From Dacryopinax spathularia (taxonomy: Eukaryota > Basidiomycota > Dacrymycetes > Dacrymycetales > Dacrymycetaceae), in the NCBI GenBank assembly GCA_037974965.1, contig JBBPFI010000002.1:1178001-1242000 (forward strand): a stretch of DNA of 64,000 bases. Reading direction: 5' to 3'. The notes under the pieces are model-generated. The model was not told the DNA's origin and made no database searches. It saw only the letters and a program-made list of their open reading frames with translations. A program made the translations under genes and the position numbers. Of this stretch, positions 1,620-42,035 are shown piece by piece (the first letter of the stretch is position 1; each line of letters begins with the position of its first letter).

Positions 1620-2531
1620 CTACTTAAAGTCCTCCGGCAATCTTCCGTTCATAACCCCCGCCGCCAGCGCAAGGCCGCGCCGCTCCGTCTCGTAGTCCTT
1701 CGGAAACGCGGAGGTGATGATCGTCTTCGGGACGGGAGATGAAGTCCATCGGGCGCTCACGTGTTCCCAGTAGGGCGGCATCCAGCCGCTGGTTTCCCAG
1801 TCGATAAGACCGACGAATCGACCATTCTTCGTCATGATGTTGTCAGGAGATAGATCACCGTGTATGAATACCGGTTTGGCCTCGTCGTACTTCGAAAAAA
1901 TGGGCTCCAGAGTGGGTCCCACTGCTGACCAATAATCTTCGAGTAGCCATCGAAGCCACTCATGAAACGCGCGCACGTCATCAAAGGGCTGAAGCTGGTA
2001 TACCTGGCTCAGACGCGGGACATCAAGAGCTCCACCGGAGGCGCTGCATATGGACTTGGGGTACGGATTCGGTATTCCACGCAGAACGCAGAGGTATCGT
2101 CGAAGATCGGCGGCCATCGCTGATACCTGAGACTCCGATAGAGTATCCTGGACGGTTTCGAGGGTCTCTCCTTCTAGTGCCGTCATCAGTAGAAAGGCCC
2201 GATGGTATGGCTCGTTGGGTGTGTGTCTGGAAGGTATGGTATAGGCGATGTAGTCCAATGCGACAGACGTGCGTATGTCCGTATGTCGTCGAATGAGCAT
2301 CATGGCGTGCGGCTCGCTTTCACCGATCGTTCCTCCCTTGAGATAGATACCGGGAAGGATAAGGCGGACACGGGTGGTATTTTGGCGGGGAAACAGCTTG
2401 TCTGTGACTTTCCAGATGGTCAGATAGATAGCGAGTCGCAGCCGCGCCGGAATGGCAAGCCAGAGCTTGCCCAGCAGGGGAGCCTGCCTCGTAATGCCGG
2501 CGACTGGGAGGCTATAGGAAGCAGGCCACAT
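1620..2531 (-). CDS. APH-type kinase, subfamily A (kinase 1)
   Basis: This is an aminoglycoside/choline-kinase-like phosphotransferase (PF01636 fold) of 303 aa. The catalytic loop HGDLSPDN (about residues 223-230) and the metal-binding segment LIDWETSGW are intact, and an N-lobe block PHAMMLIRRHT is present. The ATG at 2531 is the first in frame. The N-terminus is about 30-40 residues shorter than in its paralogues at 27262-28407 and 42036-43166, so an unseen upstream exon is possible. A GTACGC...CTGCAG candidate was tested and fails on phase. It lies head-to-head with the small partner gene at 2808, with 276 bp between the ATGs. The substrate is unknown; fungal members of this family are rarely true antibiotic kinases. 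It belongs to the ETSGW subfamily. Confidence 0.85.
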   Translation of the reverse strand: MWPASYSLPVAGITRQAPLLGKLWLAIPARLRLAIYLTIWKVTDKLFPRQNTTRVRLILPGIYLKGGTIGESEPHAMMLIRRHTDIRTSVALDYIAYTIPSRHTPNEPYHRAFLLMTALEGETLETVQDTLSESQVSAMAADLRRYLCVLRGIPNPYPKSICSASGGALDVPRLSQVYQLQPFDDVRAFHEWLRWLLEDYWSAVGPTLEPIFSKYDEAKPVFIHGDLSPDNIMTKNGRFVGLIDWETSGWMPPYWEHVSARWTSSPVPKTIITSAFPKDYETERRGLALAAGVMNGRLPEDFK

Positions 2532-2727
2532 CTTCTGCAGATAAGATTTCAGTTGATGTGGGTAGAACCACCACTGGAACTCTTGCGTACTGACCGATTA
2601 GAGGTAGTGACGAGTCACGAAACGTCAACTCGCGAGGAAGGAGCGGAGCGTAACTGGTGGAGGAGAACGGGAACAGATCTCGGCACATTTGTACCGCATG
2701 TCTCGGGATATCGTCATTCAGTTTTTG

Positions 2728-2734
2728 TATAAAT
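2728..2734 (+). promoter_or_regulatory. TATA box of small partner gene 1
   Basis: TATAAAT lies 80 bp upstream of the ATG at 2808. An in-frame ATG at 2733 overlaps this TATA box, so it cannot be the real start; this fixes the start at 2808. The partner gene of cluster II has a TATA-like run at a similar distance. Confidence 0.6.
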
Positions 2735-2807
2735 GCCAGCGCATTGCTATGGTCCGTACTTGCAAGCCTTGCAACCCCACGCTCAAATACCACCCTGCTC
2801 CCGCACC

Positions 2808-3305
2808 ATGGACCCGCAAGCCATACCGTTTATTCCGGATCATCTGTACCTGCGCATCTCCAAAGATGATCGAAACAGTGACACGATGGAGTGGTACATC
2901 TGTCTCCACGAGCAGGGTCTTGCCGGACGCCGAGCCACCTTTGCCTTGGACTGGCTCACCAAACGCCCCCGCTTCGAGTTGCGTCCCTCCGTGGATGATC
3001 GTCGGACTTCCAACGCCTTTTGGCTGCTTCACATAGCAGGCTATAGCCAAGCTGGCCTTCAACGCTTCTACCAAGCGCACAACACCTTCGATCAAGCAGT
3101 CTTCTCTGGACAATTGCAGTTTTCAAACGCTATCGACTGCATTTCTGCATACCTTGATTACCTTTTCTCTCAAGGTCTCGTCGGGGCAGCTGGTGCTGCT
3201 CTAGTGGAGCAAGCTCGTAGCCGTGCTCTCGCTAGGAAACATACGAGACCCGAACCTGGTCCGCCTGCCCCCATCACCGACGCACAGCCATTCATAACTG
3301 TCTAA
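2808..3305 (+). CDS. Small partner protein P1 of an APH kinase (unknown family)
   Basis: This is a single-exon gene of 165 aa starting MDPQAIPFIPDHLYL. It has no signal peptide and no clear TM segment. I do not recognise a named domain. It is recognisably related to the proteins at 28659-29186 and 40143-40603. Shared features are an aromatic LYL/W..CL block near the N-terminus, a (T/G)xN...hhhxhA block in the middle, a helical segment ending in GLVGA, and a C-terminal AP(I/M)xDAxPhhT motif just before the stop. It lies head-to-head with kinase 1. The start is set by the TATA box at 2728 and by similarity. The consistent pairing with a kinase suggests a functional partner, for example a regulator or substrate, but this is inference. 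Confidence 0.75.
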   Translation: MDPQAIPFIPDHLYLRISKDDRNSDTMEWYICLHEQGLAGRRATFALDWLTKRPRFELRPSVDDRRTSNAFWLLHIAGYSQAGLQRFYQAHNTFDQAVFSGQLQFSNAIDCISAYLDYLFSQGLVGAAGAALVEQARSRALARKHTRPEPGPPAPITDAQPFITV

Positions 3306-3584
3306 CTCCATCAGTCGGAGTATCGAAAGGCGTTCCAGGTTTGATTTGTATTGTGAGTCGCTCTCAGAGTGCATTGCACGATTGACTAACCATCACTCAT
3401 TAGTGCTTCTTTCGTGTAAGAGAGGGGTCGGAGTCGAGGAGGTTGTACAGTACAACGAGCTGATGAAATGCTTCGTGGTAGTGTACTTTTACCTTGTGGA
3501 GTTGTACGATGACTGGAAATACGTGTATGCCTTGAATGAAGCGCGGGATGTCACCGGCGAAGTCTATCCACCTTGCTTACATGC

Positions 3585-4553
3585 TCATGATCCGCCATCT
3601 CCAATCGGCCCAGCTCGCTCTCCTCCGAAAAGTTCGTCAGGAGGAGTGCCATAGTACACTTCTGCAAGCGCAACCAGTACCTCCCTCTCCAGCTCATAGT
3701 CTTCAGAAAGGACGTCGATAATGAAGCTCTTGAACCGGCCGTGGACAAAGTTGCCCGAATGCAGCGCGCAGGCATATTCCCAGTAGGCCGGCATCCACGC
3801 TGCCTCAGCCCAGTCGAGTAGGCCGGATAGTCGACCTTTATGGACCAAAATGTTCCGTGCGGCCAAATCGGCGTGGCAGAACCGTATCGTATAGTTCGTC
3901 CTTTCCAGGACGGGTGCCATCTTCCATCGTAGAGACTCATAGTACCGAGGGCCCAGGGTTTTCTTGAACCATCCGTGAAGGGCTGCGACGTCCAGCTGCG
4001 AAGGGATGTCGTCTCCGTAGAAATATGGCGCGTGGATGTTGCCGCCGGACGCACTGCAGATGGAGATCGTGTGGGGATTGGGTATCTGCCGCACGCTTTT
4101 CAGGCACGTTCGGAGATCTTCGCCAATTTGAAATAGGTTCTCGGGGCTGATGTCGTCCATCACCAGGTCGAGCGTGGAACCAGGGAGCTCAGATGTGAGG
4201 ATGTACCCCATGTCAACAGGAATCTCCGGAGGGGCAAAGATAACACAGTCGTAAAGCACTGGCGTCGGTATGGCCGGGGCATGCCGCTTCACGTAACATA
4301 CGGCATGTGCCTCGTCGAGCACATGGTTCCATATCCCACTTTTGAGGTATAGTCCGGGCCATATTCGGCGATTGCGACTACGCATAGCGTTGAGCGGCTG
4401 AGCAAAATATCTTCTGGATAGCGACGATAGCAGTCGATAGATTGCAACCCGCAGGCGAACTGGTACAAGTAACCAGAGCCTGCAGATTACCGGAAGCCTT
4501 TCGCTGCTAAGGCTTGTAATGGGAGATGATGCTTTCGTGGGTATCCAAAGCAT
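3585..4553 (-). CDS. APH-type kinase, subfamily B (kinase 2)
   Basis: This is a single-exon APH-fold phosphotransferase of 322 aa from the ATG at 4553. The frame stays open upstream to an ATG at 4703 (372 aa). The shorter start is preferred because kinase 4 (40851) begins with the same MLxIPTKA block and is 323 aa long. The catalytic loop reads HADLAARN, with Ala in the usual Gly position, a conservative change. The metal-binding segment is LLDWAEAAW and the N-lobe block is EAHAVCYVKRHAP. Subfamily B is set apart by (A/G)EAAW where subfamily A has ETSGW. It is convergent with P1 (280 bp between stops). A degraded piece of a similar gene lies just upstream at 4700-4936. The substrate is unknown. 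Confidence 0.85.
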   Translation of the reverse strand: MLWIPTKASSPITSLSSERLPVICRLWLLVPVRLRVAIYRLLSSLSRRYFAQPLNAMRSRNRRIWPGLYLKSGIWNHVLDEAHAVCYVKRHAPAIPTPVLYDCVIFAPPEIPVDMGYILTSELPGSTLDLVMDDISPENLFQIGEDLRTCLKSVRQIPNPHTISICSASGGNIHAPYFYGDDIPSQLDVAALHGWFKKTLGPRYYESLRWKMAPVLERTNYTIRFCHADLAARNILVHKGRLSGLLDWAEAAWMPAYWEYACALHSGNFVHGRFKSFIIDVLSEDYELEREVLVALAEVYYGTPPDELFGGERAGPIGDGGS

Positions 4554-4699
4554 TTTTCTGCCGGTTAGGTGGTGGATGAACGATACTAGCCTTTTGCTCG
4601 AGAAAGGCGGATGCAAACTGGCCTCGTGTTCGTGCGGGTCCATTTCTCGCCAGCGGGAGATCAAGAAACAGCAGAGAACGAAAGCAGGGTACTGATAGT

Positions 4700-4936
4700 T
4701 CATATCCTGACTGAAGAACGCAGAGAGACCAGATCTTGCACGACAAGAGAGCCAGATGCGGATGGCAGCATTGCGAAGATTTCATTGCATTGCCAGCTAC
4801 AGCCAGCAGGAAGAACCACCAGCGTTCCCGGTCGTGTATTGCACTTGCGACTGTGTGCCGCGTTGAAAGGCTGAGAAAACGCCAGAAAAGGATTATTGCG
4901 GACGGTACAGACTCGCAGTCGAACTGGGACCGGCAA
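4700..4936 (-). pseudogene. Relic of an APH kinase N-lobe
   Basis: On the minus strand, translation gives VPVRLRV, a short linker and then FSQPFNAAHSRK. Kinase 2 next door has VPVRLRVAIYR...FAQPLNAMRSRN. The DNA agrees over the same stretch, with near-identical runs such as CTCAGCC and AGTCGCAA. Downstream of this block the similarity fades and falls into other frames, and no catalytic loop follows. It is best read as the 5' remnant of a tandem duplicate of kinase 2. The reading is moderately secure because only the N-lobe part can be matched. Confidence 0.5.
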
Positions 4937-5509
4937 TCAGAGTCGCAGATGGGAGAGAGTCTGCTGTCAGGAGTCTTGTAAGGTCCAGCAGAAGGCGGGT
5001 AATGACGCCCCAATCATCAGTGCACCTGCCCAGAGCTGGGGAAATGAGCAAGCCGCGCTGTCGAGGGCAAACCGTGCTGGCAGGACGCAATGGTCCGTAC
5101 AGCTAAGCTTGATTAACAGAAAGCCGAGAGCAAGCCAGAGCGCGCTGTTCATATCCAACGACCGGTGCGAGCCAGACGCATACAAGGATCATCCGATCTC
5201 ATACGGTCAGTCTGTCGCAGATCGGTTGTTTATCCCAAGGCGTTTAGTAGTAAGTATGTTGCTTTCAAGAAGAATACGAGTACCTTCAATCCCGCTCTAA
5301 CTTGGTTTGTGGCGTTGAAGCGGAAGCATTTAGGGTGCATCGCCCGCTCTGAGGGGAAACGTGGAGTGAAGTAAGGGCGACGTGCACGACCAAAGAGTTT
5401 CAACGCCTGCGAGACGTGGCCCAGTTGACCCAGGCAGGCAGCCTCACGAAAACAGCTCTACCATTCTCCTCTTATCCCTTAAACTAAAAGCTTGACGACA
5501 TCTGCTGCG
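4937..5509 (+). other. Intergenic stretch before SEC23
   Basis: No supported gene. A short hydrophobic minus-strand frame at 4967-5150 (MNSALWLALGFLLIK) is too short and lacks relatives here. The right part is presumably the SEC23 promoter and leader. Confidence 0.4.
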
Positions 5510-9975
<4,466 letters not shown>

Positions 9976-12651
9976 ATGAACGGTCATGGCACTATGCAAG
10001 AACGCCAGACCGAAGAACCTATGACCTACACGAAATCGATCCTCCTCCGTGACGATGGCTCGCCAACATCCCGCCGAACCGGCTCGATGGATTCTTATGC
10101 GACATCCGAGGGCACATCCTATGACGGCTCGCCGACGAACGAACCGTCTACACTATCCCCTATCTGCGAGGATCCGATAAAGAGGAGCGAGAATGGTTTA
10201 GGGCTGAATGGTGGAGATAAGGGGGGCGAGAGCACGGTGCGTGTGACGTCGTCTCCCTCCAGTGAGGCCGATGGCGAAGCGGCGACGCCGCAGCAGAACG
10301 GCGCCGAAGCCCAGTCCACCCAAGAGCCTACGTCTACATTGGCAAAGCCACTTACCGACTCGCTTGCCTCTCGCATGGCTACTGCAGGAGGCGCGTTGGC
10401 TCCTGCTGCGAACGGACCACCCACGCCTCCGCCCTTGATCATACCTAACGCTATGTCGCTTCCCAATTCTCCGGATCCGAATAGACTTCCTACCATCCAA
10501 GCCCGCCGGCAAACAAACCCGGTGTCTACCCAACCTTCAGATAACACTCCCGTTTCCCCCCTTTCTGGTCGGCGCGGCTTTCAAAGACCAATGATCGGCG
10601 CCATGCCCTCAAGCTCGAGCATGCGCATCACGCCCGCCGTTCTGCTCACTCCGGCCGTCTCACGGCCCCTCACACTGTTCCCGCTTCCACCGATGACGCC
10701 TGCGGTCGGTAACGAAGATGCAGAGCAAGAAGCTCGCAGGGCCAAAAGAGCAGTTCCTGTCCTTATGTCACCGGGTGCGCAAGAATATCCAGACGAAGAT
10801 GCTGGTGGCAGTAGCAGCCCTGGAACCTCCGACGACGAAGGTGACGATTCGGAAGGAACCAGTGAGGAAGGAACCAGCACGGAAGATGCACGTAGTACAC
10901 GTTCGTCAAGCGGTGGGAGCAGCAATGTCGCTTTATCCGAAAGCCCCGGAACCTCTCGTGAGAGGATGGAGAGTGGGGCCACAAGCTCGAGCTCCAGCAC
11001 CTTGCGTAGGCCTTCTGCCAGTTCTGAACGGCCCATGACATCGTTCGGCGCGGCGATGGCTCCATTTACCCGGCCATTCCTTCAAGAAAGCTCTCCTGAC
11101 TCGGACGAGCACCAAATCCCGGAGGGCACCCCTACACCGGGGCCCTCGAAAGCATCGAAGGCGAAAGAGCGTGACTATTTCTCCTCAAAATCCATCTCAC
11201 CAACCGGGAATGAACGCAGTCCTCTACAAACCCCAAGACCGAAGACTACCGGCAGGCCGAGGGGCGTGACGGACGCGGATGCCCGTGCACGCCCCAGCTT
11301 GTACCATCAGAAATCCCGAAGCCTCGTCGATCTGACTGCCGATACACGAAAACCCAGCGTGCCGGAATCGGCTCCCAAGCCCCAGACGATCCCGGAGAAT
11401 GAAGTCTTGAAGCCAAAGCCAGTTCCTGCCCTCAAGAGGCGGACATCCCTCCCCTCCACGAATCCACCTCCGTACAGTCCGCCGCATCCGGCAGCCACTA
11501 TGGCTCGCACAACTGCGCGAGAAGAAGAAGGCAAGGAGAAGCTCCCACCGTACTCCTGCGGCGTGCATATCGAAGGCACGCTCCAGCGAAAAATGGAGTT
11601 TTCTGCTCCGGGTGTGCAGGCACGCGATCGGAGCTGGAAAAAGTACTGGTTCGAGTTGCATGGTCCTTCGCTCAAGGTTTTCCGACATGACCTGCGGAAG
11701 GTTCCCGTCAAAGGCTACGCAGCCTGGGACGGAAAAGGCTGTGCGGAAGATGGCAAGGCTCGACATGTACACTTGCCGGAAGGTATCCTCGAAGACAGGG
11801 ATCGAGCCCTCCGGCTGGAGCGGGAGAAGAGCAGAATAATCGAAGAGCAGCGTAAGGCGGCCGCACGCCGAGCGAGCGTGTCCTCTTCTACTACAGAGAA
11901 TCGGAGAATGTCTACCACTTCCGCCTCGTCCCATACCAGCCGTAGCACATCGCTCGCAAGTTCTCCGCCCCCTTCTTTCCATTCATCCCGGACCAGTGTG
12001 AACGCAAGCGCTGCATCTATCTCTACTTCGCCGTCTACTAACGGAACACACGAGACATCACCACCTCCCTCTCCGGAACGACCTGGTCCGTCACCTTTCG
12101 AGAAGCTCTCCCCACCGCCGACCGGTGTCGCAGTCCCCGCTCTGCGAGACAAGGAGACGCGTGCCGTGGCGACCTCAGCCAGTTCCAGCTCCCTTCGCCA
12201 TCCCCATCTGCCCAGTTTCCACCATGGAAACGCGATGCTCCGGCACTATACGATGCAAGGCGCCGAAAGCGGGCTGGGCGCGGACTACAAGAAGCGCAAG
12301 AACGTAATCCGAGTTAGGGCGGAGGGCGAACAGTTCCTCTTACAGGCCGACACCCTCGTCGACGTGGTGAACTGGATCGAGGTTAGTGAAGTCCCGCATA
12401 CATTCAGATTCTTGTGCTGACAAAGTTGTTAGGCATTCCAAGCTGCTACCAACATAGCCCTCGATCTGGATGAGCGACCTATGCCGAAGCTACCTACTCT
12501 GCCTCGTCGGCGGCGGAGGAGACGTCCACCTCAGGATGGTGCAGCGGCAGCGGCGGGAACCGCCAATGCTGCTCATCCCATTTCGCCCGGCACTGCTACC
12601 GGAAGCGCAAGCAATCCACCGCACTCTGCGGCGTCTACAAGTCGATCATAA
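9976..12651 (+). CDS. Large disordered protein with a split PH domain
   Basis: Two exons (9976-12381, 12433-12651) give 874 aa. Roughly residues 1-520 are Ser/Pro/Thr-rich and probably disordered, with many SP/TP sites. A pleckstrin-homology domain follows. Its first strands (IEGTLQRKMEF ... KKYWFELHGPSLKVFRHD) lie at about residues 531-570. Its last strand and helix (NVIRVRAEGEQFLLQADT ... VVNWIE, then AFQAATNIALDL) lie at about 772-812. About 200 low-complexity residues separate the two halves. The intron falls inside the C-terminal PH helix; the splice restores an unbroken helix, which supports it. The protein probably binds membrane phosphoinositides and acts in signalling or polarity, but I cannot name an orthologue. 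The start at 9976 is the first in-frame ATG. Confidence 0.8.
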
Positions 12652-18497: not shown

Positions 18498-19160
<663 letters not shown>

Positions 19161-20674: not shown

Positions 20675-20820
20675 ACGAAGCCTGCTTTAACAGAGCAGCC
20701 GGCCTGGGTATACAGTACACACGAGTAAAGCGAGTGAGAGAAACCAAGCTCAGATGTGCGAGTCGCGATAACAAGCGCGCGTCTCCGTGTGCCCTTCCTC
20801 ACCTTTCCTAGCGCTCGACG

Positions 20821-27093: not shown

Positions 27094-27218
27094 TGCGAAG
27101 CCTCGTCTGACAGCGGTACGAGTGGGGTTGGGGTGGGTGACTGTGCTCGGCGACATACTTGTCCCAGCCCGCTCCGTACGGCCCACTACCAAACTTGATC
27201 GATCCGGCCAGTCGCATG
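27094..27218 (-). pseudogene. Duplicated C-terminal tail of APH kinase 3
   Basis: This 125-bp stretch repeats 27341-27467, the C-terminal coding part of kinase 3, at roughly 85% identity by eye. Translation gives MRLAGSIKFGSGPYGAGWDK against MRLAGSIKFGGGPYGEGWER in the intact gene. It lies in the same orientation about 250 bp downstream and lacks the catalytic domain, so it is a tail-only tandem duplicate or the remnant of a second full copy. Confidence 0.8.
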
Positions 27219-27261
27219 TCCGGAGCAAGTATTTGAAGACAAAGGACGGTTTGCGCTGAAG

Positions 27262-28407
27262 CTAGTCGTTCCGCTGGACATCAGGGTTGTGTTCAGGGGC
27301 CGGGACCAGCGAGATACCTTCGAGTGGTACGTCAAGGCGATGCGAAGCCTCGTCTGACCGAGGGACGATTGGGGGCGGGGGTGGGAGACCGTGCTCGGCG
27401 ACCCACCGTTCCCAGCCCTCTCCGTACGGCCCACCACCAAACTTGATCGATCCGGCCAGCCGCATGACCTCTCGCTCTACAGTGTAGTCCTCGGGCATCG
27501 CCAAATCGACGATCCTCTCGCACACCGGCAAGCCCTCGACCCGGGAGGACATATATTCCCAATACGGAGGCAGCCATCCGGATGTCTCCCAGTCGATAAG
27601 ACCGGACAATCGGCCATTACGAATGAAAATGTTGTCTGGCGATAAATCACCGTGGGTGAACACCGTCTTTGCCGACTCGTACTTTTCCAGTACTGGTGGC
27701 AAGATAGTCTGCATGTACGGCCAGGTTGTGCATTTGTACTGCGGAACCCACGCATTGAACGCAGCCATGTCCTTGAAGGCTGGAAGGTCCCGGACTTCCT
27801 GGAATGCTGGCGCATCGATGTCTCCGCCACAGGGACTGCAGATTGCAAGAGGGTAAGGATTCGGGATCGTGCGTAAGGTGGCAAGATATGAACGAAGGTC
27901 TTGTCCGATGGTAGTGACCTGTTCCGGCGATAACGTATCCATGACTTCCAGGAGGGGTTGGCCATGTGCAGCAGTCATGAGCAAGAATGCCATTCGAAAC
28001 GGCTCAATGCCTTCGATTTTGACGTTCGCAACCTCGTCCTTCCACATAATGTAGTCGAGAGCGATCGAGGTGTGTAGGTCCGTATGTCGTCGAATGAGCG
28101 CCATCGCGTAAGGTTCGCTCGGCCTGATTTGCCCGTGTTTCAGGTATATACCTGGTAGGATTTGGTGGACTCGTTGAGTCATCACTCGGGGCGCAATGTG
28201 GTCGGCTATCCACCAGATCGCGCGATAGATAGCCAGTCGGACGGATGTTGGGAGGAACAGCCACATCCTCCACAGCAAAGGCGCATGGGGAGAAAGCAAG
28301 GCGGAGAGCGAGCTCGGACGCTCCACTATCACAAGGTAACTTGGTTGAAAGAGCCCTTCAAGAAACTGGGAGGGACTTTGGAAAGCCTTCCAAATGGGGT
28401 GCGGCAT
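27262..28407 (-). CDS. APH-type kinase, subfamily A (kinase 3)
   Basis: This is a single-exon APH-fold phosphotransferase of 381 aa starting MPHPIWKAFQSPSQF. The N-terminal part PSYLVIVERPSSLSALL is shared almost word for word with kinase 5 (42036-43166). The catalytic loop HGDLSPDN and metal segment LIDWETSGWLPPYWEY are intact, and the N-lobe PYAMALIRRHTDLHTS is present. The strand is open throughout and the start is the ATG closest to the shared N-terminus. It is head-to-head with partner gene P2, with 251 bp between the ATGs. Its 3' end has been copied in tandem (27094-27218). The substrate is unknown; a small-molecule or protein kinase role is equally possible. Confidence 0.88.
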   Translation of the reverse strand: MPHPIWKAFQSPSQFLEGLFQPSYLVIVERPSSLSALLSPHAPLLWRMWLFLPTSVRLAIYRAIWWIADHIAPRVMTQRVHQILPGIYLKHGQIRPSEPYAMALIRRHTDLHTSIALDYIMWKDEVANVKIEGIEPFRMAFLLMTAAHGQPLLEVMDTLSPEQVTTIGQDLRSYLATLRTIPNPYPLAICSPCGGDIDAPAFQEVRDLPAFKDMAAFNAWVPQYKCTTWPYMQTILPPVLEKYESAKTVFTHGDLSPDNIFIRNGRLSGLIDWETSGWLPPYWEYMSSRVEGLPVCERIVDLAMPEDYTVEREVMRLAGSIKFGGGPYGEGWERWVAEHGLPPPPPIVPRSDEASHRLDVPLEGISLVPAPEHNPDVQRND

Positions 28408-28589
28408 GGCAGACAGTAGAGGTGGAAAGGCAGTGTCGGTGGGTAAGGAGAGGAGGGGAATGGTGACGGGTGATAATGGTTCAGCGAGGAGTCATAAGCG
28501 GGAGCAGATCTGTGGATTCGGCCACAGTCACATTGCTGAACCGACCAATGTCCTGTCTCGGAATATGCAGCCCAACATGAGGTATATGG

Positions 28590-28598
28590 TATATATAT
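28590..28598 (+). promoter_or_regulatory. TATA-like run of small partner gene 2
   Basis: TATATATAT lies 69 bp upstream of the ATG at 28659, matching the arrangement at partner gene 1. Confidence 0.5.
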
Positions 28599-28658
28599 TG
28601 GCTTATCTCCCACCTCCTATCGTCCCCACTCTGCTCCCATCTACCACCTTTCCACAAC

Positions 28659-29186: not shown

Positions 29187-30128
29187 AGAGGAGTGCGTGT
29201 CGTACTAGGGTGTGATGGGGAGGTCGAAGAGGTCTCTAGGTGCGCGTGTTGGGCAGCTGGCTGCAGGTGCTGATACACCTCAGGTTCTGCGTCGATACCA
29301 TCTCATATCCTACCCATTTTCTCACTCTGCCCTATTCTCCTTCTTCTGCCAGCGTTTCCTCATCCTAGTCCACCATGTTAGGGAGTCGTCAGTATCTTGC
29401 CATGAATGTGACCGTTTCGCTCGAGTTGCAAATGTGCATCTCGGGCCGCCCATGCCGCCGAGAATGAGTCATTCGTCACTCTTCGGATATCAAACCGATC
29501 GTCCGTCTTCATTATTCACATCTATCCCGCTCGATGTGAACTATGCGGCAGGCGAGAGAAGAACAGGAGATCCAACCACAAGGCCACAACAGCAAGGGCT
29601 GAAGGACGTTTGGGAGATTACGGTTGTGACGCGCTTCGAGCCAATACTTCTGATGAGCTCCCTGCCACGCAACGAATGTAGGCGTCTCACGAGGTTCGGT
29701 GCTTTCTTCGTTCCGGCCCGGAAGGATCCAGACGGCACTGGGGAGCATTGCCGTCGATCGGGCGCTGCTGCCTTGCTCCTTAACCGTCTGTCAGGAGGCG
29801 CACAGCGACGTCCCGCTGGGGTGGACCACTTCAGCTCACAGAGACGCCGAAAAGGCAGCCATCGTGCTTTGAGAGTCGTGAACGATGTAGGGAGTCTTCA
29901 CTTAAGCCTGAGCGCCACATTCTTTTCGCAACGCGCAACGTGTGACTCAACGACCGGAGAGCAAGAAGCCCGGGATACGCCAGACAGACGTCACCCGTCC
30001 GTATCGAGGGGAGCCCGAGATGATCGCTCAGAGGCATTCGATTTCCGCAGCATGTACATCTTCTTCCGTACATCTCCCACACCCTCCGCACCTCTAGCTT
30101 ACTTGCTCCCACCGCCGTCCACAACCAC
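29187..30128 (+). other. Intergenic region holding repeat copy B
   Basis: About 940 bp. A long plus-strand frame (29212-30288) runs through it but crosses a dispersed repeat and NDUFS5 coding sequence in antisense, so it is not a gene. See the repeat at 29433-29638. Confidence 0.5.
29433..29638 (-). repeat. Dispersed repeat, copy B (inverted relative to copy A)
   Basis: Read on the minus strand this matches 32973-33229 on the plus strand. Shared blocks include AAGCGCGTCACA, GCCTTGTGGTTGGATCTCCT, TAGTTCACATCGA, GATCGGTTTGA and the terminal GATGCACA. Copy B lacks about 50 bp that copy A has in the middle. No coding capacity is shared. Confidence 0.8.
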
Positions 30129-30796: not shown

Positions 30797-31248
30797 GTTG
30801 CGGAGATGCGGGCAGGAGAGGTGCGAGCTTTGCCTTTGAGCTAGGAAGGCCGGCTCTGAGGCGCGGCGGTTGGTGACGACGGCAGTACAGGGACCCCGAA
30901 AGTAGGCTGGCTTCTTCGCAGACTGCACCTTTGCACCAGCAGAAACATCATTGAATCATTGATGCATTGTCTGATACATGCACTATAGGAAGTATATTTA
31001 CTACAGTGGCCGCATTCCTACTGCCATACCCGCTTTGCGAGGTGTAGCGGCCCTCTGATTGGATGCGAGACTAGCTTTTGTTGTTAGAGCGCTGCCCTTT
31101 GCTTCCGGGGTCTTGCCGTCTGAGGGGATAAGAAGGGGCCCGCTCACGACGCGTTTTTGACCCTTCATCCCCGTCCACCACCAACACTTCCCCCGCATAC
31201 ATCGCCCGCCTCACCGACGTCCATCCACCCATACAAACGCATACAAAC
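30797..31248 (+). other. Divergent promoter region of NDUFS5 and YRA1
   Basis: About 450 bp between divergent ATGs. The last 90 bp before YRA1 are C-rich leader (CCGCCTCACCGACG). No other feature is seen. Confidence 0.4.
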
Positions 31249-32959: not shown

Positions 32960-33399
32960 ATGGCTGGATGGTAAGCGCGTCACAGCTGTAATTTTCCGAA
33001 TGCCCTTCTCCTCTTGCTGTTGATGATGCCTTGTGGTTGGATCTCCTGTTTTTCTGTCATCTGTCTCTAGTAGTAGTGGTACACGCCAAATCACATTTCC
33101 AAAGCGTGCCGTGCACGTTGTACGCACCCCACCATTAGTTCACATCGACCGGTATAGGGGTGGATGATGAAGACGGATGATCGGTTTGACATCCGAAGAG
33201 AGACGAATGATTATCCGCGGAGATGCACATGACTCCACCCGAACCACGTAAAGACTTAAGGTCAGGGTTCTCGCAATAAGGGCCCGACTCGGTCAACAAT
33301 TTCATTCGTCTCGTTTATAGTCTCCTTCTTCATTCCCCACCTCCGCATTGTACATCCCTCTCTTCCCCATCTCTTCCCCATCTCTCAAACGCAGGTAGA
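32960..33399 (+). other. Intergenic region with repeat copy A
   Basis: The left part is the 3' flank of YRA1 and is almost entirely repeat copy A (32973-33229). The remainder is a C/T-rich leader for the cystathionine gamma-synthase gene. Confidence 0.5.
32973..33229 (+). repeat. Dispersed repeat, copy A
   Basis: This begins 13 bp after the YRA1 stop codon, so it forms the gene's 3' UTR or lies against it. It matches 29433-29638 on the opposite strand. Together the two copies form inverted repeats facing outward around the NDUFS5-YRA1 pair. No terminal inverted repeat or coding sequence is visible within the unit. Confidence 0.8.
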
Positions 33400-35541
33400 A
33401 TGGCCATCTCGACATACACACTCACCTCATCCGCCCTCGGCTCATCAATCCCCGCCAACCTCCCACACGCAATCTCCGTCTCCCTCCCCAAATGGCAGGA
33501 CAACGTCGACTACGAGGAAGGCGCGAGCAGGGTAGTCGAGGTGATGCAGACGGGGTATCCGAGGTTTTTTGTTCATCGGACGATCCAAAAGGTGCGCATC
33601 CCTCATCCTCGCTCCCTCCTCTGTCCTTCATCGGGGACCACTGGAGGGACGAGCTCCTGTCCTTCATCAGGGACACCGGAGATCGATGGGCGAGGAGAGA
33701 CGAGGACCCAGCTGACACCTGCTCAGTTAGCAGCCATGTGCGAAAAACGATTTGGCCAACCAGACGAGCGCGCGATGCTCTTCCCCTCCGCACGCATCGC
33801 AGCCGAATGCGTACGGTTCATGCAGTCCCAGTCGCCGCTCGGCACCTCCCTGCCCGTCCGAGTCACGCACTTCGCACTCCTGCCGCCTTCCTCGCCCACT
33901 TCTGCTTCTTTTGCTTCGCGAGAGAAGGCGGACGCTACGGTCGGAGCGCTAGCGGGAGGGGAAGGGGCAGAGCTGTATATCGTCCTTTTCCCGTCGGAGG
34001 CATACCCGCTCGCGAAGCTGTTTTGGCAGCATACGGGTCTGGGGATCTCGAGCCGTATGGCCGAGCGGTGTGCTCAGCTCTGGGCTGAAGGTGCTGCTGC
34101 TGCTGGTTCCGGATCGGCTAGCACTCGGCATGGCAGCCAGCCTGGTCCTTCCGACCCTGCCTCTCCCTCATCCGCGGGCGGCATACCTATCACTCGGACT
34201 GCTCCGCCCGCTTTGTCCGACCCTGCACAGGGGGAGTCCATGTCACCGGACCATGCGGCATACATTGAAGAGCGCTACGGCCGCAACCTCCCCCTCTCGC
34301 AGGCTTCGCTCGCTAAGCAGGCTCTGCGCCGTCGGATCGCCGGTACGCTAGCGCACGAAGAGGGCAGAGAGCAGACTGAGGTCAAGGGACGCGGCGTGGA
34401 GGGCGTGACGGAGGATGATGTGTTCCTTATGCCGACGGGGATGAGCGCCATCTGGTATGCGCATCAGTTGGCGTTGAAGGCACGGGAGCCGGCGAAGAGC
34501 GTTTGTTTTGGGTGCGTCTACGCTTCCTCCCCGGAGTGAAGAAATACAGGGTGCTGATGCTGGATCGTATTAGCTTTCCGTACACGGATACGCTCAAGAT
34601 CTTGCAGAAATGGGGACCGGGATGTTATTTTTACGGCCACGGGCTCGACAGCTCCATCGACGAGCTCGAAGCACTCCTCCGCTCAGGCGAAAAGATCCTC
34701 GCGCTCTTCTGCGAGTTCCCGTCCAACCCGCTCCTCCGCTCTCCTAACCTGCCGCGGTTGCGCAAGCTGGCTGACGAGTTTGATTTCTTGATGGTTGTTG
34801 ATGAGACTATTGGAAACTTTGTGAATGTCGAGGTGTTGCCGTATGCCGATGTACTTGTGAGCAGCTTGACGAAGGTGTTCAGCGGGGAGACGAACGTCAT
34901 GGGCGGGAGGTGCGTCTTCTCATCTCTTTCCTGGTTACGCCTGCTCAACCGGTCGCAGCCTCGTGCTCAACCCTGCACGCCGACACCACGCTATCCTCCG
35001 ACGAACTTTCAGAGAGATCTACGAAGACACCTACTGGCCCGAAGACGCCATCTTCATGGAGCGCAACTCGCGCACCTTCGTCTCCCGCGTCTACGTAATC
35101 AACGACAACGCCGAAGCGGTGTGCGACTTCCTACACAACCGGATCGGCGTTCCCGGGTCGGCAGTCAAAGAGGTCTACTACCCCAAGTACACCACCAGGG
35201 AGAACTACGACGCCTGCCGGATACCGGCGCGCAACGGCCGTCCAGCGGGCGGCTTCGGCGGCTTGTTCTCAGTGACGTTCCTCAGCATGGCCGCGAGCAA
35301 AGCCTTCTTTGACACGCTGCCCTGCGAGAAAGGTCCAAGCCTAGGGACGAACTTCACGCTCGCTTGCCCCTATACGGTCATAGCGCATTACACCGAACTG
35401 GACTGGGCCGCAGAGTGGGGCGTGGAGACCAGCCTCGTCCGGGTTAGTGTGGGGATGGAGGATAAGCAGAGCCTGCTGCGCGGGTTCGCCCAGGCGCTCG
35501 AGGCGGCCGATAGGGCTTTGGCCGAGGAGGGCTCGGGTTGA
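33400..35541 (+). CDS. STR2: Cystathionine gamma-synthase (STR2/met-7 type)
   Basis: This PLP enzyme makes cystathionine from cysteine and an acylated homoserine in the transsulfuration route to methionine. Four exons (33400-33591, 33727-34511, 34574-34909, 34959-35541) give 631 aa, typical of the long fungal form. Landmarks are [16 protein letters not shown], then [12 protein letters not shown] with the cofactor-binding Asp, then [16 protein letters not shown] with the Schiff-base Lys. The C-terminal small domain ends with [11 protein letters not shown]. The first intron is 135 bp, a multiple of three and stop-free, so a retained-intron protein is also open; GTGCGC and CTGCTCAG borders and low-complexity content favour splicing. 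A Pro/Ser-rich insert lies at about residues 180-225. The enzyme appears intact. Confidence 0.92.
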
Positions 35542-36588
35542 TGTGTGACTGTGTAACTGTTGTTTGTTAGAAAAACTTGTCTGTAATGGGTCGATACCCA
35601 ATGGACTTATACATATACCGCTTGAAGAAACAATTATGCAATTTGATTCTGGCCTTCAAAAGTACGGATGTGATTCGACTCGTCCTTCACTGAGCGTATT
35701 GCACTTCCGGCCAGGTCTAAACAGGGCAAAGATGCCCGTGCACGTCCGGTGCGTGCCATGAAGGCTGCCGATGCCCTAGGCCAAAGGGTTGACTGACCAG
35801 TCTGTAAAAAGTCGCTAACAACGACCATCCAGCTCCGCGGCATCATGTGCAGATTCCCTGGACCGTGCGTGGGCGAATTGCTGGACCAGCGACTGCCGAA
35901 GCGGGTGCGAAGTCTCATGACGACCCGGCGGGATACACTTCATTTCGTAGATAGCGACTACAATCTAATCGCGAGGAGTCAAGAAGTATCGTCAAGCTTA
36001 GACGTGCCGTTGTTGCGAGACGTTCGTGATGGCAACGCGACGGGCGGGGATGATCCGTTCGGCATCTCGGCCTTTAGTGGCAGTGTTATGTGGAAAGCTT
36101 ATGTGTGTGGGGTCTTTTGCCCATCATGATCATCATCATCTTTCTCGGACGCGCTGATACTTCCAACAAGCAATCTGTGCTTTACTTACTGGATTTGCTG
36201 GTATCTTGGGACTACATCACTTCTATTTGCGTAATCACGTGGGAACCTTGATGGACTACGGCGCCTAGTAACTGCCCGATATGGTGAATCGTATGGTATC
36301 CTCATCGGCATTCGTTCGCTTGGCGACCATGAGCTCGATTGACAAAGCTCGTGTTGCCATGACTGGCGTGGGACGGCTTCTCGTCATCCTTCCCATCTCC
36401 GTTCTCCCACTGGATATAAGGATGCCTGGCTTCCCGTCTCCTGCTCCTCACCAGCTGCGCTGCTGTCATCCCCGTTCATCGTTCTCTGTCTATCAACCCT
36501 GAGCCCGGCGCTCTTACTCCACTTCAGTTGACCTGAGCCTGTCCTTACCTCGAGTTCTCTATCTTCGTTCCTGCATCCAACTGCCGCT
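35542..36588 (+). other. Intergenic region before the secreted-protein gene
   Basis: About 1 kb; no frame has family character on either strand. A TATA-like element lies at 36415. Confidence 0.4.
36415..36420 (+). promoter_or_regulatory. Candidate TATA element of secreted-protein gene
   Basis: TATAAG within GGATATAAGGA lies about 170 bp upstream of the ATG. This is plausible if the leader is about 140 bp. Confidence 0.35.
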
Positions 36589-37446
36589 ATGCATTGTCGT
36601 CTCTCTATTCTGTCAGTTCTGGCGCTCGCTTCGGCTGCCTTCGCCTTCCCCGTCGCGCACCCCGAGACCAAGGCCGCCGCTGCGCTGCGACGAGCAGCCG
36701 CAATCAACTTTGGTACTTGCAGCGACCCGGAGGTGACCGACAACAACGGCGTCTTCAGCGTTGGGAATACCGTGAGTACCATAACAGCCCCTCGTGCAAT
36801 GTTCCGTTCTGATCTTCCTTGATCAACAGAAAGACTTCGGTTCCGTCCAGTCGTCCAAGTTCTTAGACGACGTCGTTCTTGGTATCTGCCAAGTTCTGGC
36901 AACCAACTGCGGTGTTGATGGTATCACTAATGGTAGGCGGTACATCAGATACTCAATGGCAATGTCTCATCAGACTGTTAGGTGACTGTTCCACCGCCGC
37001 CTCCGATGCGATCGGTGTTGGCAACTCCGCAGCTGCTGCTGACGAGTTCAATTCCGTCCTCGGTATAACGGTATGTTATCGACGGCATCTACCGTCCGTC
37101 ATGTACTGATGGATGGGCAGAGTGACTTCGCATCCACCGCTGCAGCTGCGGGTGGAGGAGCGGCTGCTGCCACGACTACTAAAGCGGCTGCTGCCAGCAA
37201 GACGAAAGCCGCCTCAGTTGGCAAGGCGACCCACACTGTGAGTTACTTTCTTAATCCAAGTCTTGCTCTTCTAATAAGCTACACAGAATGTCGCCGCGGC
37301 TGCTTCCGACAGTGAGTCACTGCACGGCTTCTAGCTGCATTATGCTGACTCCATTATCAGAGAACGGCCAAGGTCAATCGCACGGGAGCGGGAGCGGGAG
37401 CGGGAGCGGTCAGAAGACGGAGTGCGCGCGCAGCTCTACTTCCTGA
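36589..37446 (+). CDS. Small secreted cysteine-containing protein, 200 aa
   Basis: Six exons (36589-36771, 36830-36932, 36982-37070, 37121-37237, 37287-37311, 37361-37446) give 200 aa. The first 20 residues (MHCRLSILSVLALASAAFAF) form a clear signal peptide with a cleavage site after AFA. The mature part begins with a propeptide-like ETKAAAALRRAAA and then NFGTCSDPEV, a motif common in small secreted basidiomycete proteins. Four Cys follow in a compact domain (CSDPEV, GICQVLATNC, GDCSTAA), probably forming disulfides. The C-terminal half is low-complexity Ala/Thr/Lys and then (GS)n, ending SSTS, as seen in wall-associated proteins. No enzymatic motif is seen. Splice phases agree throughout. 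Its function is unknown, perhaps cell wall or host/substrate interaction. Confidence 0.8.
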
Positions 37447-37815
37447 GCAGCCTTCGCAGATCAAGCGCAAGGTTGATGTTCTGAGCTTCGCGGACGGCTC
37501 GACACTGTATATGTGGATTACTAGACAGAACCTTGAATGAGCATCCGCTTCTGCCAATCTTCCTGTGGTCGTACAACAATTCGCGATTCATTTCGACACA
37601 ATGTACAACATGCGAGCGTTACAACAGAAGATTCGACAGAATACACTTCCCTTCCTTCAAGATTCAGCCTGACACAAACAAGATAGACCGTTAAGCGCTG
37701 CGCTGCACGTCCTCCGGATCGACGAAGAAAAACGTGAACTACCATGGGGTTACTATGGACGGGGTTGTCAGCCTAGCCCTCGCGGTTCATGGCTGGGGGG
37801 CAGGACGCACCTGTA

Positions 37816-40135
37816 CTGTAGTGGACAAAGTAGGTGCGCGTCACCAAACCCTAATGGAAGCAAATTTTTGTCGTCCAAAGTGCGCGATCTCAGGAAAGGC
37901 TGGTGACAGTGCGCGTTCTTGCCATCAACATGCCTGACAATACCTTACCACCTGCTGGCAGCATTCTTAACTACTTGAAACCTGTCCCCACCCAGCAGTA
38001 TCTCCAGGAGACCAACCAGCGGCTAGAGGAGGAAAGAGAGGAGAGGGAGGTGGCAAGAGTAGAGCGACGTTTCCAAGCAGCTTTGAAAGCGAGGCGAGAC
38101 CAAGAGGCATTGAGGGTGAGAAAAAGAGAGGATAAGAGACGGTCAAGAGCACGTCAGAGGAAAGCGGACCTGCTGGGTACTGAGGTGCGCCGCTCTCTTG
38201 CTTTTTTCAGCTTGAGCTCGAAGTTGATTTTGCAACATAGAAGCGACCTATGGAGCTCACCGGTTCTGAATCACCATCGGACGATGAACCAGTTGAGATT
38301 CAGCCCTTGCTGTCTGCTGGTCCAAAAGCAGACCTTTCCCGACCATTTCGCAAAGCAAGTTCGCAACCAGCTAAGAACATGAATTGGTTCGCACCATTCA
38401 TCTGGGATGATATCGAGCAAGCACGGAAAGATGTAGGCTGGCATCCAGCTAAGATCGAGGCTCTTCTCAAGCGACGGAAACCAGCAGTGTTTGCCAGCCA
38501 GCCAGCTATCCATCATGGTACGATTCGTCGCTGGATGAAACCCGGAGGTGGATGGACAGAAGCAGTCCAGAGGCGGATTAAGAGTCATTACCGACAGATT
38601 TACAATGCAACCGGGCAGACTGGAGTGTTGGTAAGCAGCTCTTTCTTCTGCATGAGCAGGCTTGCTAAAGATCGAGTCAGACTGGTTGTATTGATACAGT
38701 CGAAAAAATCAAGACCCAGCTCATCCAGCTCCGAGAGGCCTTAATTGCGCTTTCTGCACACCTTTGTCAAGGCATCATTCTTGGACACCTTTCTGAAGAT
38801 CATTCAGAAGTCTTTACAAGGATTGTGCGCCGCACCGGCCAGCCATTCACTGTCTCGCTGAAGTTTGTCCGGCGGTTCCTGCATGCCCAACTGGGTTGGT
38901 CGATCCGACATGCCACTAAAGCAGGCCAGCTGGTTCCAGAAGACTATCAAGAACAGTGCTACCGTCTTTGCCTGCGCACTGCCTGGCTCATCAAGCACTA
39001 TCGTATCCCGGCAGACTGCATTGTCAACTCGGATCAGATGCAGGTTCAACTTCAGCATGGCGGTTCGATCACTTATGCTGCGAGGGGATCAAAGCAGGTG
39101 GAAGTTCTTGGGAAAGATGAGAAGCGGGCATTTACTGCTGTTACTGGCTTATCTGCGGCGGGTCAACTTCTGCCCTTTCAGTCAGTATGGGAGGGAACCA
39201 CAAACTGCTCCCTTCCTTTCGGTAACAAACCAAACAAATCTCAAGAACTCCGTGATGCGCTTAATGCTGGTCATCTCTTTGCACTTGCCCCGAACACTTA
39301 TTGGTCAACACAACCGACAATGGAGCAGTATGTCCGTGACTTGCTGGTACCCCACTTTCATCGCCAGAATGAACGCCATGGCCGGAGTTCGGATGCCCGC
39401 TGCATCTGGATCATCGATGTCTGGAGTATCCACCGAAGCGAAGCCTTTCGTGGTTGGATGCAAGCTACATATCCGTGGATCCTCCTACAATTCATACCAG
39501 GGAATTGTACCGGCATTATGCAACCAGCAGATGCCGGTATGCAGCGCCCCCTCAAGAACGTGATTCGAAAAGCCGCACTAGACGATGTTGTCAATGAGAC
39601 CCGACAGCTCCTTCGGGCTGGCACACCACCAGAAGAGCTCCAATGTGATGTCACCCTCCCAACGCTACGAAAGCGAAGTGTAACCTGGCTGATGAAGGCA
39701 CATGCAGAGTGCAATCGACCGGAGATTGTTTTGAAGGCATGGGAGCTCTGTCGCTGCGGAAAAGATAACATGACACTGGCATATGACTGTCTGACATCGC
39801 CAGCCACTCAGCGGTTACTGGACGATCTTCCCTTCCAGGATGGCCAGCTGTTCCGTCAAATTCTGCCTCGAGGTGGTATCCATGATCTCGGACTGCAAGG
39901 GGTGCGCCTTGGGGAGGATGAAGAAACTGAGCATGGGATTGATACCTTAGATATCATTTTGGATGAGGAAGCAGTTGGTACAACAGCAGATGATCATGAC
40001 GCAGACCTTATCATGTTGGATTGATATCATCAATGAAAGTGCGCGGTTTTTGAAACAGCTGGTGACAGAAGCGGAAAGTGCGCGGTTTTGGGCCCTGGTG
40101 ACCGGTGACCTGCGCACCTACTTTGTCCACTACAG
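37816..40135 (+). mobile_element. Tc1/mariner-pogo-type DNA transposon, apparently complete
   Basis: This 2,320-bp element has perfect 24-bp terminal inverted repeats, starting CTGTAGTGGACAAAGTAGGT, at 37816 and ending at 40135. TA dinucleotides flank both sides (37814-37815 and 40136-40137), the usual target-site duplication of this superfamily. Subterminal copies of a GTGCGCG word and of CTGGTGACAG occur near both ends and are likely transposase-binding sites. The single gene inside is intact over three exons. Near-identical ends and an open transposase suggest a recent insertion. Confidence 0.93.
37930..40024 (+). CDS. DDE-superfamily transposase (pogo/Fot1-like)
   Basis: Three exons (37930-38184, 38241-38630, 38681-40024) give 662 aa. 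The second acceptor was chosen because it alone keeps phase, joining TGVL to TGCIDTVEKIK. Residues 15-80 form a charged coiled coil. A helix-turn-helix-like region (HGTIRRWMKPGGGW) lies at about 180-195. The catalytic core has NSDQMQ (D333), WIIDVWSIHRS (D461) and MQPADAGMQRPLK (D499), with 37 residues between the second and third acids, fitting the DDE_1 (PF03184) pattern with a final D. No internal stop is seen. It lies between the terminal repeats of the element at 37816-40135 and is probably functional. An acidic C-terminal tail follows the core. Confidence 0.9.
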
Positions 40136-40142
40136 TACTCTC

Positions 40143-40603
40143 CTACTGCACGATCTTCAAATAAGCCGAATCGACGATTGGCGCATCGCCGGAGTTTCGT
40201 CTACCACGCACAAGCTTCTCGGCCTCGGCGATGATGTTTTCCATTGAATTAATCAGGCCTTTCGCCTCAAGCATGCGAAGGTGGTAGCGCAGCCAATTGA
40301 TCGGGTCGTTGAGCCCCTCGTCCTTCCAAATGTCTTGCACTACCTCCGCAAACTTCCTGCATTCGCCTCTGTAGTCTTCTCGTGACTTTGGGCTATTGAG
40401 CATAGCGATTCTGATGAAGAGCGCCACATTGGTGGTTCCTCGTACGTCGTTAATCTCTTTGGCGAGGACGGACAGCCCGGCCTGCTCGTAGAATGTCGGC
40501 ACATTGCGGAAGCCGCTGGCGCCGCCCAAGTGTAGATACGTTGAGTACTGTTTACGTCTCCCATTCCCATACCGTTCGTAAGGAATTCGGTGGATTCGGT
40601 CAT
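40143..40603 (-). CDS. Small partner protein P3 of an APH kinase (unknown family)
   Basis: The proposed two-exon model is 40556-40603 and 40143-40481, giving 128 aa. The start MTESTEFLTN follows an A/C-rich leader. The intron GTAAAC...GAGCAG is in phase. The main exon is open further upstream without an ATG-led leader, so a longer single-exon product starting at 40676 cannot be excluded. Similarity to P1 and P2 is clear in the second exon: RGTTNVALFIRIA against RRTSNAFWLLHIA, then a helical segment with EAKGLI against SQGLVG, and the C-terminal APIVDSAYLKIV against APITDAQPFITV. It is head-to-head with kinase 4 (247 bp between ATGs). The pogo-type transposon ends 7 bp beyond its stop codon. 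Confidence 0.6.
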
Positions 40604-40850
40604 GACGAAGACGCTGTGAATGTTGTAAAGATGTTGAACTGGGTGTGTGCCAGCACGACAATGGCGGCAAACCCATATGAAGCACTTCACTTCTAATCAC
40701 GACCAAAAAGATGCCGTGATGCACGCTAACGCGGTCTCGGAGGCAGCCGAACCGTCATCCACAGCGCCCTTCGTTCCTTACTCGTCAGTGCGTAGCGCAG
40801 TTTGCGCGCCTCTCAGTAATTCTGAGTTACTGACAGAATTTGGTCAGGAC

Positions 40851-41822
40851 ATGTTGGATATCCCAACGAAGGCTTTTTGGCCGCCAGAAGTTCCAGCCGA
40901 TTCGTGCAAAAAGTCTATAATCCTTCGATTGTGGTCGACCTTGCCCTGCCGATGGCGTGTTGGTATTTACCACCTCCTCTGGAATCTTTCTCCCAGGCTC
41001 TTTCAGAGGCACGGCCGCAAGTCGGGGCCTCGGAAGGTGGCACCGGGCCTCTTTCTCAAGCATAACCTGCGAGAAGGGGGCGCGGACGAAGCCAACGCCC
41101 TTCTCCAGGTTGCCAAACATACGAACATACCAGCCCCTCGTCTTTACGATTGCGTCGCCTATACCCCTAATCCTAAATTGGAGATATTCGAGGATCGCGT
41201 CTATCTCCTGATTTCGGAGATACCTGGAACTACCCTCGAACGCGTCATGCTCGAAATGAGTTCCGACGCCAAGGACCGTATCGCAGAAGACCTTCGAGCA
41301 TGTCTTGACCAGTTGAACCGAATTCCGAACCCCTATGGCCACGCGATCTGCAGCCCGTCGGGCGGCCCGATACGTGCTCCCTATATATTTCCAGGATTGG
41401 ACATCCCACCCCAACAACGGCTCGCCGATCTGAACGAGTACCTGAAGAGGTGGACGCAATGTTGCCCAGAAGAATTTCAGAAGAAGTTCCGTCCCGTGCT
41501 AGACAACACGACCTATTCGATCCGATTCTGCCATGGCGATCTCGCACCGCGCAACATCATGGTTCAGAATGGTCGTATATCTGGGCTGATCGATTGGGGG
41601 GAAGCAGCATGGATGCCGGTATACTGGGAGTACGTTTGCGCTCTGCACACGGGCGTCCGGGTGTCGAAAACGTTCAAGCCCATCATCAGAAGCGCTCTTC
41701 GTGAATGCTACGATGCTGAGAGGGAGGTTTTCTACAACATCAATGAACTTCAAGCAGGATGTCCTTCCAGCGAGCTCTCTGCATCGGTGGAGGATGGGGA
41801 GGAGGAGTGGAACGTCGAGTAA
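40851..41822 (+). CDS. APH-type kinase, subfamily B (kinase 4)
   Basis: This is a single-exon APH-fold phosphotransferase of 323 aa from the ATG at 40851. In-frame ATGs also exist at 40719 and 40677. The 40851 start is chosen because MLDIPTKAF matches the start block MLWIPTKAS of kinase 2 and gives nearly the same length. The spacing to P3 then equals that of the other pairs. The catalytic loop HGDLAPRN and the metal segment LIDWGEAAWMPVYWEY are intact, with N-lobe EANALLQVAKHTNIPAP. It is closest to kinase 2 (both (A/G)EAAW). It is followed 213 bp later by kinase 5 on the same strand. The substrate is unknown. Confidence 0.87.
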   Translation: MLDIPTKAFWPPEVPADSCKKSIILRLWSTLPCRWRVGIYHLLWNLSPRLFQRHGRKSGPRKVAPGLFLKHNLREGGADEANALLQVAKHTNIPAPRLYDCVAYTPNPKLEIFEDRVYLLISEIPGTTLERVMLEMSSDAKDRIAEDLRACLDQLNRIPNPYGHAICSPSGGPIRAPYIFPGLDIPPQQRLADLNEYLKRWTQCCPEEFQKKFRPVLDNTTYSIRFCHGDLAPRNIMVQNGRISGLIDWGEAAWMPVYWEYVCALHTGVRVSKTFKPIIRSALRECYDAEREVFYNINELQAGCPSSELSASVEDGEEEWNVE

Positions 41823-42035
41823 CACCCTCTTTGTGACATACGATCGGTGTGCGTAAGAGAAGAAAGACCCCTTTGAACACGTGGGATAGCCGAGAAAGAC
41901 GAGTCACGACGCGCCTACGAAGTGACCATGTACGGTCAACATTGCCTGGCTCCTCCTGTCTCGGACGCGCCCGAGCAGTGATTGCGGTTCAGCTCCCGCT
42001 AGCATGTTTGATCTCTGTCCTCGTGCTTCGCGTAC

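Follow-up and report, generated by a model that had tools for sequence, protein, structure and literature searches.

Genomic organization of the kinase cluster

The 64-kb window analysed here (the whole stretch of 64,000 nucleotides, C2:1178001-1242000, where C2 denotes contig JBBPFI010000002.1) is part of the Dacryopinax spathularia genome assembly, which comprises 29,246,034 bases in 24 contigs. The window alone encodes five open-frame APH-type kinases (K1 to K5) and three small proteins (P1 to P3), and each P gene stands head to head with a kinase gene. Such a recurrent divergent module of a kinase and a small protein had been proposed in an initial annotation of the window; the three pairs are real, and six are present in the cluster to which they belong. 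Genome searches with K3 (24 matches), K4 (21 matches) and a kinase profile delimited a kinase cluster of 87 kb (C2:1133.8-1221.2 kb) containing 13 kinase genes or remnants, nine with an open frame and four broken or relic. The Pfam APH profile has 31 matches in the genome, 11 inside the cluster and 20 outside. Furthermore, a genome search with P1 returned five matches, three of them new (C2:1136757 and 1141499 on the plus strand, 1165728 on the minus strand), which represent three further P genes up to 45 kb to the left of the window. All six P genes found fall in C2:1136-1219 kb.

Within the window, K1 (1620..2531, minus strand; motifs HGDLSPDN and IDWE) faces P1 (2808..3305, plus strand; 165 amino acids, or 190 when the open reading frame (ORF) is taken from ATG 2733) across an intergenic region of 276 bp (2532..2807), which carries GTCTCGG at 2700-2706 in the sense of P and TATAAA at 2728-2733. 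K3 (27262..28407, minus strand) and P2 (28659..29186, plus strand; 175 amino acids) are separated by 251 bp (28408..28658) with GTCTCGG at 28555-28561, again in the sense of P, and a TATA-like run near 28590. The third pair consists of P3 (40143..40676, minus strand), a 177-amino-acid ORF conserved from about residue 40, and K4 (40851..41822, plus strand; ORF open from ATG 40677); the K4 upstream region (40677..40850) contains GTCTCGG at 40734-40740 in the sense of the kinase. The remaining two kinases of the window are K2 (3585..4553, minus strand; ORF open from ATG 4703), which has no P neighbour, and K5 (42036..43166, plus strand), which has no P of its own and is preceded by an upstream region (41823..42035) with GTCTCGG at 41958-41964 in the sense of the kinase.

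Three pairs lie outside the window. Kb (C2:1135409-1136350, minus strand) faces P6 (start at C2:1136688, plus strand), Kd (C2:1140163-1141176, minus strand) faces P4 (start at C2:1141461 or 1141484, plus strand) and Ke (C2:1166532-1167483, plus strand) faces P5 (start near C2:1166167, minus strand). P5/Ke is broken in both genes, and P4/Kd has a damaged P. The cluster also includes the open-frame kinases Ka (C2:1133803-1134777, minus strand) and Kf (C2:1168750-1169670, minus strand) and the broken or relic kinases Kc (C2:1137786-1138747, minus strand), Kg (C2:1175308-1176120, minus strand) and Kh (C2:1169984-1170889, plus strand; a weak match).

Sequence features and relatives of the kinases

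K1, K3 and K4 had been described as intact at HGDL...N and IDW, and this was confirmed: both motifs can be read in all three, and they score 71.5, 56.4 and 74.1 bits, respectively, with the Pfam APH profile (PF01636; gathering cut-off 23.2 bits). K2 and K5 (45.4 and 62.3 bits) as well as Ka, Kb, Kd and Kf (68.9, 78.5, 63.8 and 71.8 bits) likewise exceed the cut-off. In an alignment, the H-G/A-D-x4-N and D-W motifs are present in all nine open-frame cluster kinases, K2 having the variant HAD. Lys65, Glu73, His224, Asp226 and Asp244 are conserved in at least 90% of 16 sequences; we take the first two to be N-lobe residues and the last three to belong to the catalytic motif. Judged by these motifs, K is predicted to be a competent phosphotransferase.

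The best solved relatives of the K profile are bacterial APH(3') enzymes (2bkk, 1l8t and 1j7i; best E 1.4e-6), with which the kinases have the catalytic motif in common. However, K3, K4 and Kb score only 35.2, 36.1 and 36.7 bits against the 205 bits demanded by the NCBIfam APH(3') equivalog, and nothing points to an aminoglycoside substrate. A comparison of K3, P1, P2 and P3 with the PADLOC anti-phage profiles yielded no family at E <= 0.01. Many fungal proteins are among the K3 matches, and APH-type kinases are common in fungi; to our knowledge, most of them have no known substrate. The nearest named relatives of K3 come from Calocera cornea and C. viscosa (Dacrymycetes), the best three named sequences being 50-52% identical. 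In a tree, K1, K3 and K5 group with 11 Calocera or metagenome proteins (46-55% identity to K3), several of which appear to share one contig. The inspected records of the Calocera APH-family proteins name no P partner.

Two minor observations concern the kinase genes of the window. K3 has a tandem repeat at its 3' end (27094-27221 and 27341-27469, 86% identity), and a possible kinase remnant (43 amino acids, 49% identity, E 0.004) lies just upstream of K2 at 4826-4945 on the minus strand.

A family of small orphan proteins

P1 and P2 are 32% identical (pairwise E 1.7e-16), and their similarity sits in the annotated frame (E 6.6e-17) and is conserved at the protein level. One antisense frame pair of the two genes also scores E 9.8e-6, which we take as a shadow of the annotated-frame similarity. 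P3 has no significant pairwise match to P1 or P2 in BLAST, so that the earlier description of the three small proteins as alignable holds for P1 and P2, while P3 is joined to them only by a wider profile. In a search with a profile of P1 and P2, P3 heads the non-members with E 0.98, a score also reached by 3 of 5000 shuffles. By contrast, a profile built from P1, P2, P4, P5 and P6, with P3 excluded, recovers P3 among 3106 ORFs of a 144-kb region at E 7.8e-7; it scores 26.9 bits against a shuffle maximum of 8.0, and none of 10,000 shuffles is as good. Because the five-member profile finds it so far above the shuffles, P3 is a true member of the family; its N-terminus is aberrant. The frame of its conserved part is open from ATG 40676, which abuts the longer K4 ORF (from 40677), and ATG 40603 lies in a different frame. 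The frames of P1, P2 and P6 are clean.

P1 to P3 contain no toxic or other domain with a Pfam match above the cut-off. Weak helix-turn-helix matches were found in P3 (HTH_12, E 0.045; HTH_20, E 0.05), and the P profile shows a weak match to the ArsR-family chain 3f6v (E 0.12). These similarities are what would speak for P as a DNA-binding regulator acting on the promoter of its own pair at GTCTCGG, with K as the regulated enzyme, an explanation that we regard as highly improbable.

Relatives of P beyond the genome were sought with a profile of P1 to P3 in 5.8 billion proteins, where none of 6088 candidates reached E <= 0.01, and with P1 alone, where none of 128 candidates was found at E <= 10. 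This protein-level negative is a weak one, as the search needs shared words and P1 and P2 themselves have only one 5-residue word in common. Searches of viral contigs with the P profile and K3, and of prokaryote contigs with P1, gave no confirmed match either. P thus appears, from its sequences, to be a fast-evolving orphan family.

Repeats lie downstream of two of the P genes. A transposon at 37813-40138, which we presume to be of the pogo/Tigger type, contains a DDE_1 transposase ORF (39038-40024) and is bounded by inverted repeats (about 35 bp, 94%). Only 5 bp separate its end from the stop codon of P3, and it therefore inserted directly behind this gene. Downstream of P2, inverted repeat patches at 29469-29636 and 32973-33210 are 83-88% identical.

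Linkage of P to a divergent kinase

All six P genes face a divergent APH-type kinase (P1-K1, P2-K3, P3-K4, P4-Kd, P5-Ke and P6-Kb), with distances between the start codons of 276, 251, 247, 284, 376 and 337 bp for P1 to P6, all below 1 kb. The initial annotation gave the first three of these distances, which were reproduced, with the qualification that the 247 bp of P3 are counted from ATG 40603, out of frame with the conserved part. It further held that pair, orientation and spacing are maintained while the sequences diverge; pair and orientation are indeed retained across three kinase subfamilies, and spacing is loose, ranging from 247 to 376 bp over the six pairs. When P was placed at random in the cluster, a divergent K lay within 400 bp in 2.9% of placements, and none of 200,000 random sets of six P genes gave five or six with a divergent K at less than 400 bp. 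As the copies share descent, this statistic describes linkage that has been kept and is not a probability of independent origin.

Genome searches with P1, P2, P3, P4 and P6, in which the best candidates were scored, identified no P outside the cluster, and hence no P apart from a kinase in its own genome. Within the 144-kb region, tblastn with the six P proteins returned no hit with an E below 0.067 other than the known copies, and possible P remnants within about 2 kb of Ka, Kc, K2 and Kf were at chance level (tblastn, E 0.87 or worse). The P profile was also applied to the 1.5-kb flanks of seven of the 20 non-cluster APH loci (L017-L020, L022, L026 and L028), where the best E among the matches listed was 0.37.

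At one further position in the cluster (C2:1169670-1169984), Kf and the relic Kh diverge from a single GTCTCGG site, and a kinase remnant occupies the place where P stands in the other pairs.

Age and duplication history of the pair

A tree of 11 cluster kinases or pieces, which omits Kg and Kh and includes Ke and Kc as pieces, resolves three subfamilies: A (K1, K3 and K5 together with the Calocera sequences), B (K2 and K4) and C (Ka, Kb, Kd, Kf and the Ke and Kc pieces). The L017 outgroup row of this tree derives from a wrong frame and its branch is meaningless, and the other outgroup rows are long. Identity between the subfamilies is 27-41%, and pairs occur in all three, namely in A with P1 and P2, in B with P3 and in C with P4, P5 and P6. 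The pair is therefore most simply older than the subfamilies. Since subfamily A includes Calocera sequences, K/P pairs would be expected in Calocera as well.

Sequence identity is lower among the P proteins (17-34%) than among the K proteins (27-74%). Two kinases of the window, K3 and K5, share 75% of their protein sequence and 77.6% of their DNA over 1008 bp; K5 was copied later, as a kinase without P. A single recent segmental duplication as the source of the three pairs, with P frames that are non-coding, can be set aside: when the window is compared with itself, the only matches are the K3/K5 block, short patches of kinase sequence and repeats in other places, neither a P gene nor an intergenic region is duplicated as a block, and P1 and P2 are conserved in the annotated frame.

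The ratio of non-synonymous to synonymous substitution rates (dN/dS) is 0.18 for K3/K5 (dS 0.95) and 0.15 for Ka/Kb (dS 1.57), so purifying selection acts between copies of K. Ratios of 0.12 for Kb/Kd and 0.28 for K1/K3 come with dS values of 1.8-3.7, near or at saturation, as does that of 0.40 for P1/P2 (dS 1.93); for K2/K4, dN/dS is not computable.

An upstream element shared by the cluster

Of the 13 kinase genes or remnants, 11 have GTCTCGG/CCGAGAC within 250 bp upstream, where it is the commonest 7-mer; Kf and Kh share one site in this count, and for broken genes the end of the open frame was used as the start. In shuffled upstream sets the mean maximum is 4.3 and the highest 7, none of 500 reaching 11. 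The element was not found within 300 bp upstream of K2 or at Kg. The whole 144-kb region contains 31 GTCTCGG sites, and all six pairs have one between K and P, which reads towards P in five of them. A 17-bp form, GTCTCGGNNCGGANGCA, has six sites in the 29.2-Mb genome, five of them upstream of Ka, Kb, Kc, Kd and Ke and the sixth inside an ORF on contig C13 that was judged by eye to encode tubulin. At six APH loci elsewhere, the upstream regions contain a single GTCTCGG, about 500 bp before the matched stretch.

As kinases without P carry GTCTCGG too, the element is a mark of the kinase cluster, irrespective of P, rather than of the pair. The earlier proposal of a co-regulated unit stands to the extent that the unit is recurrent and that the shared element is consistent with co-regulation; the element is not confined to pairs. 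Its presence makes the kinase cluster a defined regulon candidate.

A second word, GACGAGTCACGA, stood out in the K1/P1 intergenic and K5 upstream regions. Upstream of K5 (41823-42035), GTCTCGG and GACGAGTCACGA are oriented as they are when facing P in K1/P1, and K5, which was copied from the K3 kinase without a P, stands as if replacing a P.

Interpretation of the K/P pairs

We favour, with about even confidence, the view that each pair is a copy of a single old head-to-head unit of two co-regulated genes, P being dependent on K. In its favour are the linkage of all six P genes to a divergent kinase, the common orientation, the occurrence of pairs in three kinase subfamilies, the upstream GTCTCGG, the preserved catalytic motifs and the purifying selection between K copies. 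Distances between P sequences also track those between K sequences (r 0.74, five pairs), a marginal result given that 7 of 120 permutations, the true one included, are as good, and in P5/Ke both genes are broken. No P was found without an adjacent K, while four open K genes stand without P, and we therefore infer that P depends on K or its context and not the reverse. Under this scheme, K, an APH-fold phosphotransferase, and the small, fast-evolving P would be driven from one shared promoter region, and one regulator reading GTCTCGG would probably switch on the whole cluster together. P would be intracellular, no leader being seen by eye. The two proteins may act in one process, in which P could be a substrate, adaptor or effector needing K, and K could also serve without P. 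Local duplication and decay would make the cluster grow and shrink, so that each K/P pair may come to differ in specificity. A partner gene retained next to its kinase despite deep divergence would help to reveal the target or the partner of such a kinase, and P is an orphan protein family that can now be named for testing.

Several observations weigh against a functional unit. Ka, Kf, K2 and K5 are intact yet have no P. The probable start of P4 is in another frame, beside an intact Kd, P5 is split between frames, and the N-terminus of P3 is unconserved. Two or three of the six P frames are thus damaged, and as many as half of the P genes may be losing their function; assembly errors could account for some of the frame damage. 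The protein and contig searches described above gave no relative of P outside the D. spathularia genome. GTCTCGG reads towards K in K4/P3, it also precedes Ka, Kc, Kf and K5, all without P, and common descent may explain part of its conservation. The word GACGAGTCACGA was rejected as a specific regulatory word, with 8 genome matches versus 9 for its reversed control.

Much of this, together with the confinement of all copies to one 87-kb cluster, would fit descent alone, a possible explanation to which we assign clearly less than even confidence. Ancestral K-P neighbours would have multiplied locally, P being an unrelated orphan that borders the same intergenic region but does not act with K. 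The four open kinases without P, the damaged frames of P4 and P5 and the element in front of kinases lacking P would all be in keeping with this. What argues against it is the lack of a lone P among the six, despite P identities of 17-34% and a spread over three K subfamilies; lone kinases exist, and were P a free gene, lone copies of it would be expected too.

This asymmetry between P and K could be read in terms of a toxin/antidote or allorecognition system, in which a harmful P is restrained by the neighbouring K via phosphorylation and conflict diversifies the cluster. Each undamaged P lies beside an open K and kinases are often without P, the only pair in which the kinase is broken (Ke) has lost an intact P as well, and P diverges fast. 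A functional precedent is available in SPOK of Podospora, a multi-copy fungal family in which, according to the portion of the source consulted, a kinase-like part is required for resistance (PMC9972908); homology of this domain to K is not claimed. We nevertheless consider such a system unlikely, as P has no match to a toxic or other Pfam domain and its fold model is weak, and the joint decay concerns one pair. More specifically, a previously undescribed toxin/antidote or allorecognition system of two genes in Dacrymycetes, in which P would harm the cell unless the adjacent K modifies it and diverged pairs would set self and non-self, is decidedly improbable.

Relation to known systems

Fungal APH kinases are already known, and in kind the cluster is an amplified divergent gene pair, here with an orphan partner. 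Like the K/P pairs, SPOK combines a kinase-like part with a multi-copy fungal family; as far as the consulted portion of PMC9972908 describes it, SPOK is a single protein that includes a putative nuclease, whereas K and P are separate divergent genes without a nuclease match. Fungal regulated cell death clusters of two or three genes also place a small gene beside a signalling gene and vary in number between species, but their parts, in the sections of PMC12881547 consulted, are NLR, protease or gasdermin proteins, and P has no such Pfam match. Nothing relevant to the K/P pair is contained in the consulted part of PMC8893723. No description of such a pair was found in the literature, most subscription papers being out of reach; neither the P family nor its location next to K nor the GTCTCGG element is described in the literature searched.

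Elsewhere in the window, a direct repeat pair of about 213 bp (58256-58468 and 62858-63068) is 87% identical.

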